DNA of 64,000 nucleotides from Desulfallas thermosapovorans DSM 6562 (lineage in GTDB: Bacteria > Bacillota > Desulfotomaculia > Desulfotomaculales > Desulfallaceae): contig NZ_VNHM01000008.1 in NCBI RefSeq assembly GCF_008124625.1, forward strand, positions 62,001-126,000. Reading direction: 5' to 3'. The position numbers were made by a program, and so were the translations under genes. Below are positions 4,305 through 7,200 of the stretch, piece after piece; positions within the stretch are counted from its first letter, which is position 1; every line of letters starts with the position of its first letter. Below the pieces are notes generated by a model, which saw only the letters and a list, made by a program, of their open reading frames with translations, was not told the DNA's origin and ran no database searches.

Positions 4305-4454
4305 ATGAATCACCCCTTTTATTTCACTGCTGTAAGTGCAAGATTATATTAACCGGTACATTATACCATCTATATTTGATGCCGGAAAAAAATATTGCAA
4401 AATTGAAGGGATTTGGAACTTTAAGTTAAATAAATATAATAAAAGAATAATACT

Positions 4455-4704
4455 CAGGTTTTTGGGTGTCCCTTTTAAAGGGAAGAATAGGGAATTCAGG
4501 TGCAAGTCCTGAGCGGTCCCGCCACTGTAACCGGGGAAAACCTTGAATTAGACCACTCCTTTGTTAAAAGGGGGAAGGCTCAAGTAGTTTAATGATCCGG
4601 AAGCCAGGAGACCTGCCCATAAACTATAACACCTACCGCGTAAATACGGTAGCAAGAGATCGGATGATGGAAAAGTCCGGCCCATATGGGGCCGGGCTTT
4701 TTTA
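4455..4704 (+). promoter_or_regulatory. Cobalamin riboswitch with terminator expression platform
   Basis: The leader holds the conserved cobalamin-aptamer blocks in order: GGGAA, CAGGTGCAAGTCCTG (4497-4511), then GCGGTCCCGCCACTGTAA (4513-4530), and the B12 box AAGCCAGGAGACCTGCC at 4601-4617. An intrinsic terminator follows at 4671-4704, 46 bases before the first structural start. This is the layout of a transcriptional OFF switch: adenosyl- or other cobalamin binding should favour termination. It controls the ferredoxin-AOR-MoaD operon, which is not a standard cobalamin synthesis or transport target. Confidence 0.93.
4671..4704 (+). terminator. Riboswitch-controlled intrinsic terminator
   Basis: AAAAGTCCGGCCC, a five-base loop and GGGCCGGGCTTTTTT form a strong GC stem with a T tract. 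It sits after the B12 box and before the ferredoxin gene, so it is the likely expression platform. Confidence 0.88.
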
Positions 4705-4750
4705 AATATGTGCAACTAAAGAGTTAGAAAAAATAAGGGAGGTAGTGGCT

Positions 4751-5047
4751 GTGTTAAACGCATTGCAAAATCGCATAATCATCCATCCGGAAAATTGCCG
4801 GGGATGCAGGCGTTGTGAGATGGCCTGTGCTTGGACGGATCAGGGGCTTGTTAATCCACGCTTAGCCGGTATACGTATCTGGAAGCTGGAGGATGAAGGC
4901 AAGGATTACCCGGTGTTCAACCAGTTGTGCCTGGACAGCTTCTGCGGAAAGGAACTGCCGGAAGAAAGGGGTTCGGGCGTACCGGCGTGTGTAGGCAGCT
5001 GCTTATTTAACGCTTTGGAAATGGCGGGAGGGAATGGCAATGAGTAA
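4751..5047 (+). CDS. 4Fe-4S ferredoxin, AOR-associated electron-transfer subunit
   Basis: About 98 residues with an N-terminal CRGCRRCEMAC cluster motif (residues 18-28), a CLDSFC pair in the middle and a C-terminal CVGSC. This is a reduced two-cluster ferredoxin of the type encoded beside aldehyde:ferredoxin oxidoreductases. GTG 4751 is preferred because GGGAGGT lies seven bases upstream; the in-frame GTG at 4745 is too close to that SD. Its end overlaps the AOR start by eight bases, indicating translational coupling. The role inferred is accepting electrons from the AOR protein. It is the first gene downstream of the cobalamin riboswitch. Confidence 0.85.
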   Translation: MLNALQNRIIIHPENCRGCRRCEMACAWTDQGLVNPRLAGIRIWKLEDEGKDYPVFNQLCLDSFCGKELPEERGSGVPACVGSCLFNALEMAGGNGNE

Positions 5048-6929
5048 ACAGTGGCATGGCTGGGCAGGAAAGGTGTTATGGGTGGATCTGAGCTCGAAAT
5101 CCTACCAAACAACAGAACTACCGGCTGAGCTGGCGTATGGTTACCTGGGGCAATCCGGTGTTAACGCTCGGTTACTCTATGATCTGGCCCCGCAAGGGAT
5201 GGACCCCTTTGACCCGAAGGCACCCCTCATTTTCGGTGTGGGACCGCTGTCTGGCACGTTGGCTCCCTGCTCCGGTCGTTTTACAGTTACCGCCAAGTCA
5301 CCCCTTACCGGCATATTCGGGGATTCCAACTGCGGCGGTCACTGGGGTCCGGAACTAAAGCAAGCTGGTTATGACCATATTATTATTACAGGTCAAGCGG
5401 AGCACCCGGTGTATTTATGGCTGGACAATGACCGGGTAACCATTCGCGATGCCCGGCACCTCTGGGGCAAAGACACCTGGTCAACTGACGAGGCTATCAA
5501 AAAGGAGCTGGGTGATAACACTATACAAATAGCCTGTATTGGTCCGGCCGGGGAAAACCGGGTGCGTTTTGCCGCTATTATATGCAATCTGGCCCGGGCA
5601 GCAGCCCGCACCGGTCCCGGGGCGGTGATGGGCAGTAAAAATTTAAAGGCCATTGCTGTCAGGGGAAACATGGGCACTAGCGTGGCCAAACCGGCACAAT
5701 TTCGCGAGGCCGTCGCACGTGCGGTGGAAGCTATCCGAAACGATCCCCTGTATGAAGTGGCTTCAACATTCGGTACCACAGCTATCACCGGATTGGCCCA
5801 AATGCTGGGTTTTCTACCAACCCGGAATTTCCAGCAATCCACCTTTGAAGAAGGGGAAAACTTGCGGGGTGAGGTGCTGCTGGAAAACTATATAACCAAG
5901 CGTAAAGGATGCTTCAACTGCCCGGTGAGCTGCAGCAGGTTTTACAAGGTAAGTAGTGGAGATTATGCCGGTACTCTGGGTGAGGGACCGGAATATGAAA
6001 CCATATCGGCTTTTGGTTCCAAGTGCGGTAATGGTAATATGGAAAGCATATTATTTGCCAACACGCTGTGCAACAAACTGGGTCTGGACACCATATCCAC
6101 AGGAAACGCTGTGGCCTGGGCCATGGAGGGATACCAGCGAGGTATAATCAAGGACAGTGATACCGGCCTGAACCAACCCTTGCACTGGGGCAGCCATAAA
6201 CTGATTATAGAACTGATAAATAAGATAGCTCATCGCGAAGGTTTTGGCGGCTTGCTGGCAGAAGGGGCCTTGCGTGCCGCCAAAAAGATGGGTGGAGTGG
6301 AACTGGTGGTGCATAGCAAAGGTATGGATTACCCGGCGGTGGATGTGCGCGGCACCAAAGGTATGGCTTTATCTTTTGCGGTTTCGCCCCGGGGCGGTGA
6401 CCACCTTAAGGGTTTACCCATGTATGAAGTCGGTCCCGAAATATATGCTAAAGATATTAAGGAACTGCTGGGTATTAATGTTACCCCTAATTATTGGATG
6501 AAATATGAAACCAAACCGCAATTAATGTATTGGCATGAAAATTGGCACTGTGTAGTGGATTCCCTGGGCCTTTGCAAACTTGAAGGCATTGCTATGAAAC
6601 CGCTTCTGCCGGTGCATTTTCGGGATTTACTGGCCTTTGCCACCGGTTGGGATGTGGATGTCCTTGAACTGGAGTTGATTGGAGAACGAATATGGAATCT
6701 GGAGCGCTTGTTCAACATACGTGAGGGACTGCGCAGGCATGACGATATGCCGCCCGCTCGGATGTTTGAACCCATAGGAAGTGGACCCGCCGAAGGAGAG
6801 TCGCTGGACTTTGCTCGTTATAACCAAATGCTGGACGAATATTACTCTTTGCGTGGTTGGGATAAAGCAGGAGTCCCTACCGGTAAAAAGCTGCGGGAGC
6901 TGGGATTACATTATGAGGGTAAAAATTAG
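5040..6929 (+). CDS. aor: Tungsten-type aldehyde:ferredoxin oxidoreductase family protein
   Basis: About 629 residues, normal for AOR. The N-terminal half carries the pterin-binding signatures PLSGTLAPCSGRFTVTAKSP (71-90), GDSNCGGHWGPELK and RTGPGAVMGSKNLKAIAV (192-209). The [4Fe-4S] ligands are the CFNCPVSC motif (Cys293, 296, 300, counted from ATG 5034) plus a later Cys in SLGLCKLEG near residue 517. The family oxidises aldehydes, or reduces activated acids, with a bis-tungstopterin cofactor and ferredoxin. The exact substrate is not deducible. ATG 5040 has GGGAGG eight bases upstream; ATG 5034 has only two. It forms an operon with the ferredoxin before it and the MoaD-like gene after it, under the riboswitch. 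Confidence 0.93.
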   Translation: MSKQWHGWAGKVLWVDLSSKSYQTTELPAELAYGYLGQSGVNARLLYDLAPQGMDPFDPKAPLIFGVGPLSGTLAPCSGRFTVTAKSPLTGIFGDSNCGGHWGPELKQAGYDHIIITGQAEHPVYLWLDNDRVTIRDARHLWGKDTWSTDEAIKKELGDNTIQIACIGPAGENRVRFAAIICNLARAAARTGPGAVMGSKNLKAIAVRGNMGTSVAKPAQFREAVARAVEAIRNDPLYEVASTFGTTAITGLAQMLGFLPTRNFQQSTFEEGENLRGEVLLENYITKRKGCFNCPVSCSRFYKVSSGDYAGTLGEGPEYETISAFGSKCGNGNMESILFANTLCNKLGLDTISTGNAVAWAMEGYQRGIIKDSDTGLNQPLHWGSHKLIIELINKIAHREGFGGLLAEGALRAAKKMGGVELVVHSKGMDYPAVDVRGTKGMALSFAVSPRGGDHLKGLPMYEVGPEIYAKDIKELLGINVTPNYWMKYETKPQLMYWHENWHCVVDSLGLCKLEGIAMKPLLPVHFRDLLAFATGWDVDVLELELIGERIWNLERLFNIREGLRRHDDMPPARMFEPIGSGPAEGESLDFARYNQMLDEYYSLRGWDKAGVPTGKKLRELGLHYEGKN

Positions 6930-7200
6930 ATACTATACCGTTATTTGCGCAGCGGCCGGTTTCTGTAGGGAAGAACACATAAACCTAAATGAAAGCCTTG
7001 ACTTATACACTTTGCTGCAAATTATTTCTTCTAAGTATGGTGGCCAAATGGAGAAGGCAGTAGCTTCCTTATTAAATGGTGAAAACAAAATTCTTTGGAT
7101 ATTTGTTAATGGTTACAGGATAAAACCGGACCAATTTAACGTAATTTTGCAGGAAGGTGATGTGGTAGTGCTGACAACGCCGCTACTCGTGGGTGGCTAA
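6913..7200 (+). CDS. MoaD/ThiS-family sulfur carrier (tungstopterin synthesis)
   Basis: 95 residues ending in LLVGG. The terminal Gly-Gly is the hallmark that is adenylated and thiocarboxylated in MoaD/ThiS ubiquitin-like carriers. The start ATG 6913 lies inside the end of the AOR gene (17-base overlap), and the protein begins MRVKIRYYTV, a typical beta-grasp first strand. MoaD donates sulfur to the pterin dithiolene of molybdenum or tungsten cofactors. Such paralogues commonly sit next to AOR genes, presumably to supply cofactor for that enzyme. No terminator is evident after it. Confidence 0.85.
   Translation: MRVKIRYYTVICAAAGFCREEHINLNESLDLYTLLQIISSKYGGQMEKAVASLLNGENKILWIFVNGYRIKPDQFNVILQEGDVVVLTTPLLVGG

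Follow-up and report, generated by a model that had tools for sequence, protein, structure and literature searches.

Which genes does a cobalamin riboswitch control when it stands ahead of an aldehyde oxidoreductase, and what would such an enzyme do when cobalamin runs short? The question is raised by a locus of Desulfallas thermosapovorans DSM 6562, in a 64,000-nucleotide stretch of contig NZ_VNHM01000008.1 (positions 62,001 to 126,000; hereafter the window). There, a leader RNA carrying a cobalamin aptamer precedes genes for a small ferredoxin-like protein, an aldehyde:ferredoxin oxidoreductase (AOR) and a MoaD-like protein. This riboswitch-AOR unit is real, conserved and rare: it defines a family of 12 genomes with a testable switch, and links the state of a cobalt cofactor to a putative tungsten enzyme in anaerobes of several lineages.

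The leader RNA and its expression platform

The initial annotation had claimed a complete cobalamin aptamer followed directly by a terminator and a ferredoxin-AOR-MoaD operon, and had proposed a covariance search. When the whole window was searched with cmscan, RF00174 was matched over its full length (189/189 positions) with a score of 125.7 bits (E 3.6e-31; gathering score 31.5), and this was the only Rfam match above the gathering score. The gene order and the stem at 4668-4704 also agree with what had been annotated. The features of the locus, all on the + strand, are:

4413..4440, +, sigma-70-like promoter TTGGAA-16-TATAAT, a match to the consensus only (10/12 positions)
4447..4634, +, cobalamin riboswitch aptamer, RF00174 model positions 1-189, 125.7 bits
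4633..4652, +, hairpin CUACCG/CGGUAG directly 3' of the aptamer
4660..4680, +, antiterminator hairpin UCGGAU / GUCCGG, loop GAUGGAAAA; it and the terminator cannot form together
4668..4704, +, intrinsic terminator UGGAAAAGUCCGGCCC-AUAUG-GGGCCGGGCUUUUUUA, 16 pairs and a 5-nt loop
4751..5047, +, ferredoxin-like protein of small size (98 aa, 8 Cys) whose GTG start lies 7 nt downstream of AAGGGAGG
5040..6929, +, AOR, 629 aa, PF02730 and PF01314
6913..7200, +, MoaD/ThiS-like protein, 95 aa, GG C-terminus, TIGR01687

The expression platform of the aptamer, a terminator and a covarying antiterminator, lies before the first gene of the operon; the hairpin at 4633-4652 sits at the position of what we take to be P13. 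RNA 4630-4745 folds with -35.3 kcal/mol (z -3.47) and none of 200 shuffled sequences was equally stable. A consensus scanner for terminators placed the 4668-4704 stem solely on the - strand; it counted 2 terminators in total, fewer than the 3.6 expected by chance.

Leaders were compared across the AOR set of 12 genomes, which consists of the window, ten members recovered in a scan of genome contigs and one further genome (G196). A terminator was detected by script in 10/12 leaders, and in L056 and L066 a terminator with an interrupted stem was recognised by eye. The antiterminator hairpin carries a family loop, GA(T/A)GGNAAA, and pairs with the 5' arm of the terminator; in the G196 leader the script chose a different hairpin, and the alignment register gives the same antiterminator helix with fewer pairs. 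Over the 12 sequences, the eight pairs of this helix showed 88.6% standard pairing, 18 double-change cells against 6.4 in shuffles and a covariation of 0.602 against 0.265, the last two values being reached by 0/500 shuffles. Sliding the register by one column dropped standard pairs to 57% and 43%. Two other counts were less striking, namely the pairs with a double change (6, with 35/500 shuffles as high) and the further pair types (13, with 142/500 shuffles as high).

Since the covarying antiterminator overlaps the terminator, the leader has the organisation of a transcription attenuator, and we regard it as very probable that it is a transcription-attenuating cobalamin riboswitch controlling the AOR operon. 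Control of the operon by the riboswitch, as initially annotated, is thus upheld by the covariance match, the conserved terminator and antiterminator and the linkage in 12/12 genomes described below. Judging from the terminator, the switch is most likely OFF with ligand; in cobalamin riboswitches it is the rule that the cobamide favours the terminator. With the aptamer placed ahead of the AOR operon, synthesis of the enzyme is probably confined to times of B12 shortage.

The promoter-like site at 4413-4440 is not significant alone, because the whole scan found 6 such sites where 5.1 were expected. The same consensus scan of the window reported no further + strand promoter-like site between the terminator and the ferredoxin start. 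This bears on a different account, in which the switch would be of the ON type, or the leader a separate short transcript, and the AOR would not be repressed by cobamides. The sequence by itself is compatible with either direction of control; in G206, a riboswitch stands ahead of the gene of a CdhD/AcsC-like protein, a kind that depends on B12, and the window's own genome holds an apparently orphan riboswitch. However, a terminator with an overlapping antiterminator stands before the first gene in the 12 leaders and no other promoter-like site precedes the window's ferredoxin gene, and we consider this account highly improbable.

The AOR and its relatives

The AOR carries both AFOR_N and AFOR_C domains (E 2.9e-82 and 6e-132, well above cut-off), and a profile of the window AOR and four orthologues gave 1aor as best structure match (E 1.8e-167). 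The cluster cysteines C291, C294, C298 and C512, together with E320 and H455, align with 1aor, where the matching residues are presumably C288, C291, C295, C494, E313 and H448. Both the cluster cysteines and the Glu/His pair are invariant in the five aligned sequences. The enzyme is predicted to be a catalytically intact tungstopterin enzyme, tungsten being assigned from homology only. The eight cysteines of the ferredoxin-like protein give room for two [4Fe-4S] clusters, its PF12797 score (22.8 bits) lying below the 24.5 cut-off. The MoaD-like protein matches TIGR01687 with 8.5e-08 and 32.6 bits, below the 49.5 cut-off. The ends of the three genes overlap.

A search of 200 genomes, including the window's own, recovered the window copy and four orthologues at 67-83% identity, the next protein being at 48%. 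The scan of genome contigs found ten members at 62-83% identity to the window protein and nothing else above 47%; three of these (L050, L051 and L053) are loci already present in the 200-genome search. The 12 genomes span two phyla, Bacillota and Thermodesulfobacteriota. A survey of relatives for the same leader, another proposal of the initial annotation, bore it out in the entire subfamily: RF00174 lies upstream on the AOR strand in 12/12 genomes, with scores of 94.0 to 137.5 bits. At the 60 other AOR loci examined, of which L020 and L059 are one place and 27 have about 1.5 kb of flank, RF00174 was not found (0/60); L079, L082 and L088 have fewer than 300 bases upstream of the match and therefore say little about absence of the aptamer.

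In a tree of 55 rows, the 12 aptamer-linked AORs form one clade with a support of 100/100, and the aptamer label requires one change compared to 11.0 in shuffles. This tree omits L015-L017 and L020, which are copies of L050, L051, L053 and L059, as well as loci L071, L072, L078-L082 and L084-L092. The window's genome encodes three AFOR proteins; the other two (L012 and L013) fall outside the remaining 53 rows when the tree is midpoint-rooted. In 12/12 genomes, the AOR gene is preceded by one for a ferredoxin with eight or more cysteines. The MoaD-like gene lies 3' of AOR in the window, in L050-L053 and in G196, and was not found by motif search in L054, L056-L058 and L066; the DNA of L055 ends inside the AOR gene. 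In viral contigs, none of 43 pattern matches was a relative. A wider search of the phylum around G207 (E 1e-220) gave, among the matches listed, 1/395 genomes, G207 itself; since scoring covered at most three candidates in each genome, some members may have been missed.

Cobalamin regulons and the role of the AOR

We propose that transcription would start just before 4447. Binding of a cobamide, probably the adenosyl form, to the aptamer would let the terminator at 4668-4704 form and keep the operon silent. When cobamides are short, the antiterminator at 4660-4680 would take the 5' arm of the terminator and the polymerase would read into the ferredoxin, AOR and MoaD-like genes. The AOR would pass electrons through the small 8-Cys ferredoxin, its putative partner, and would convert an aldehyde or acid connected with the acquisition or assembly of cobamides, as a member of a cobamide-acquisition regulon. 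In some lineages its substrate, possibly a lower-ligand precursor, would be imported by an energy-coupling factor (ECF) transporter encoded in the same operon. This explanation builds on observed features, namely the aptamer, its platform, the gene order, their conservation and the aligned catalytic residues. Taken whole, as an attenuator plus a role of the AOR in cobamide acquisition, perhaps in lower-ligand supply, it is our tentative preference. If the role is in cobamide assembly, an unexpected enzyme class would be added to one of the best-studied cofactor pathways.

The company that the AOR keeps was assessed from the other riboswitches of the AOR genomes, the window's own included. We counted 44 units, which cover 47 of the 67 non-AOR riboswitches; the 20 outside the count are all in G202, G203 and G205. 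Genes were named mostly by eye, 20 proteins were checked by Pfam, and L157 was counted as unassigned. Cobamide synthesis and the uptake of cobalt or corrinoids account for 32/44 units. The window's genome has four further riboswitches: three stand before cobT, before cbiJ-cbiMNQO and before cobU-cbiP-cbiB-cbiA-cobS-cobD (names by eye), and one has no gene behind it. In the 40 regions of the other genomes, 29 belong to cobamide synthesis (16), cobalt transport (8) or corrinoid uptake (5), the last consisting of TonB receptors and of DUF4430 surface proteins, which we assume to belong there. B12-independent alternatives make up 2/40 (NrdD in G196 and a GrdB-type reductase in G203), and 6/40 are of other kinds (CdhD/AcsC-like; radical SAM; acetolactate-synthase small subunit; EamA/NifH-like; ABC permeases; an alcohol dehydrogenase plus Glycos_transf_3); no category was assigned to 3/40. 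From these counts, acquisition and bypass both have precedents, acquisition far more often.

Several of these units have features of their own. The riboswitch of the window's genome with no gene seen behind it (L007, contig C24, 772-953, - strand, 114.8 bits) has a terminator-like hairpin, and the feature that follows, some 600 bases away, is the start of a 16S rRNA at the end of the contig. In L142 (G206, 1-1571), the riboswitch lies about 50 bases before the gene for the CdhD/AcsC-like corrinoid protein, of a B12-dependent kind, and is possibly an ON switch. In L172 (G203), a sodium symporter-like gene and the genes of a GrdB-type glycine/sarcosine/betaine reductase follow the riboswitch, a possible B12-independent betaine route. 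In the same genome, of Thermincola, a riboswitch 6.6 kb upstream of that of the AOR precedes genes for a zinc alcohol dehydrogenase and a Glycos_transf_3 (TrpD-like) protein (L173, also L046 1775). In the L140 unit (G204), the riboswitch precedes a permease of cytosine/purine type, cobT and a BzaC-like methyltransferase, cobT and the methyltransferase being named by eye; this make-up suggests lower-ligand import. Large surface-type DUF4430 proteins stand behind riboswitches in L134 (G200), L147 (G208) and L156 (G201), the riboswitches being in tandem in L134 and L156, and possibly serve corrinoid capture. In G196, cobalamin riboswitches precede a gene for the small subunit of acetolactate synthase (L162) and genes for an EamA-like transporter and a NifH-family protein (L164).

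The minority of B12-independent enzymes bears on a second account, that of the initial annotation, according to which the AOR, with an alcohol dehydrogenase or a ferredoxin-linked partner, would take over substrate or electrons when a corrinoid route stalls, much as NrdDG and MetE stand in for B12-dependent isozymes. Cobalamin regulons that replace one isozyme by another form an established class in the accessible parts of the literature (PMC3766115, PMC545781), and both NrdD (G196) and the GrdB-type reductase (G203) lie behind riboswitches in AOR genomes. In G203, a riboswitch with a zinc alcohol dehydrogenase gene is found 6.6 kb upstream of the AOR riboswitch, and Desulfofundulus kuznetsovii oxidises methanol by a cobalt-independent route of alcohol dehydrogenase and AOR, as far as the available part of the source describes it (PMC5770442). 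However, MtaB, the only B12-dependent counterpart tested, occurs in 3/12 AOR genomes and not in the window's, which makes a methanol bypass in place of MtaB unlikely. Furthermore, alcohol dehydrogenase is absent from the operon, 32/44 other units serve cobamide synthesis or cobalt and corrinoid uptake, and the links to ECF, UbiD/CapAB and bza genes described below are left unexplained. We consider a bypass somewhat unlikely; if true, it would reveal that these anaerobes have a B12-dependent step that has so far escaped notice.

A role in cobamide acquisition draws on a transporter gene that recurs in such operons. An ECF S component lies between riboswitch and ferredoxin in 3/12 AOR genomes: L052 and L055 have the order riboswitch, fused ECF ATPases, EcfT, S component, ferredoxin and AOR, and L053 (L046) has riboswitch, S component, ferredoxin and AOR. 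The S component was found in 4/200 genomes and, by profile, in 4/43 and 1/4 class members (overlapping sets), altogether in nine genomes with L052 and L055 included, and an RF00174 match precedes its gene run in 8/9. Its identification as a known vitamin transporter was rejected, as it has no significant family or PDB match. Relatives of the S component accompany a UbiD-family decarboxylase and CapA behind RF00174 in L097, L099, L105 and L107. CapA is caprolactamase/acetophenone-carboxylase-like, below the equivalog cut-offs; CapB is present in three of the four operons, and L107 ends inside CapA. UbiX lies in line in L099 and on the opposite strand in L097. In L106 (6212-18787), directly behind the riboswitch-linked ECF genes come a second riboswitch and an anaerobic benzimidazole operon of bza type, bzaA-bzaB-cobS-cobT-bzaC-bzaD-bzaE, in which BzaB and BzaD pass NCBIfam cut-offs and the rest were named by eye.

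The same importer with different enzymes under cobamide control suggests that these enzymes act on the imported compound. In its strongest form, a cobamide-repressed ECF transporter would import an environmental compound, from which AOR or UbiD/CapAB would make a component of cobamides, for example a lower ligand of an unusual kind. We rate this form as speculative and unlikely; were it true, the AOR would be the first tungsten enzyme in cobamide metabolism, and the ligand route would be other than bza, BluB or simple salvage.

Several observations weigh against a role in cobamide acquisition. An AOR is not known to take part in any cobamide step, and B12-independent enzymes (NrdD, GrdB-type) are also part of these regulons. 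No ECF gene was present in the flanks read at 9/12 AOR loci, and the L098 relative of the S component has no riboswitch in the DNA examined. The S component has no significant match in Pfam, NCBIfam or PDB (a sub-threshold MatE match and PDB matches with E 0.2 only), and its AlphaFold model, made from three sequences, is unusable (pLDDT 49). The AOR as part of the bza benzimidazole pathway was rejected, since ThiC-like pairs of bzaAB type occur in only 3/12 AOR genomes (G196, G202 and G205). Of the single ThiC-like copies looked at (L109, L110, L112 and L113), three adjoin thiamin-like genes (by eye); that of the window's genome, L113, has no thiamin-like neighbour.

A third account starts from cobamide synthesis itself. 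The CbiG protein of the anaerobic B12 pathway releases C20 as acetaldehyde, as stated in the available part of the source (PMC7242693), and an AOR induced together with B12 synthesis could oxidise this by-product. The regulatory logic would be exact, and CbiG and CbiD occur in 11/12 AOR genomes. On the other hand, one acetaldehyde per cobamide is a tiny flux, and B12 makers are common whereas the AOR subfamily is rare (5/200 genomes including the window's own, and 1/395 among the matches listed). G208 has the AOR and no match to CbiG or CbiD, an absence that is weak because the genome is a draft, and the ECF links are left unexplained. Scavenging of acetaldehyde is thus improbable.

Comparison with known systems

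The ardX-frdX pair is reportedly among the B12-element-regulated genes of the Rodionov 2003 JBC survey, and an earlier mention of the link is possible. In the part of PMC545781 available, frdX stands beside an hcp gene, outside the part on cobalamin. No link between cobalamin riboswitches and AOR appears in the accessible parts of PMC3766115, PMC545781, PMC5770442, PMC10907483, PMC12093947, PMC7689651, PMC9600662, PMC7242693, PMC12934955, PMC13119186 and PMC5651825. Literature searches pairing cobalamin riboswitches with aldehyde ferredoxin oxidoreductase or with UbiD, or joining CbrT, ECF transporter, cobalamin and riboswitch, retrieved nothing; a looser combination of the riboswitch and AOR terms led to an unrelated source, and those on cobalamin riboswitches and tungsten gave no AOR link in the portions of the sources available.

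The AOR leader shares with the RF00174 class a full-length aptamer, a B12 box and a terminator platform. As described in the available part of PMC3766115, that class regulates biosynthesis, transport of B12, its precursors and cobalt, and isozymes, with no aldehyde enzyme, whereas here an AOR is controlled. With the pathway of alcohol dehydrogenase and AOR in D. kuznetsovii, the accessible parts of PMC5770442 and PMC10907483 show a common element, a cobalt-independent AOR in a sulfate reducer. There, according to the same parts of both sources, the AOR gene adjoins that of the alcohol dehydrogenase and the protein is abundant on methanol with or without B12. Unlike in that methanol setting, MtaB is missing in 9/12 genomes of the AOR subfamily.

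The AOR structures 1aor (also 9mqx and 9g7j) have in common with the window protein both AFOR domains, the cluster cysteines and the Glu/His pair. Compared to 1aor, the window AOR belongs to a subfamily of its own (at least 62% identity) with small insertions after GGDHLKG, and this subfamily differs from AORs of the 1aor type by the 8-Cys ferredoxin gene ahead of it in 12/12 genomes and by cobalamin control. CbrT and CblT are cobalamin-regulated ECF transporters for B12 or its precursors. Systems of the CbrT/CblT type have, as here, an ECF module and an S component behind a cobalamin riboswitch; in contrast, the S component described here, which is without a significant family match, travels with AOR, UbiD/CapAB or bza genes.

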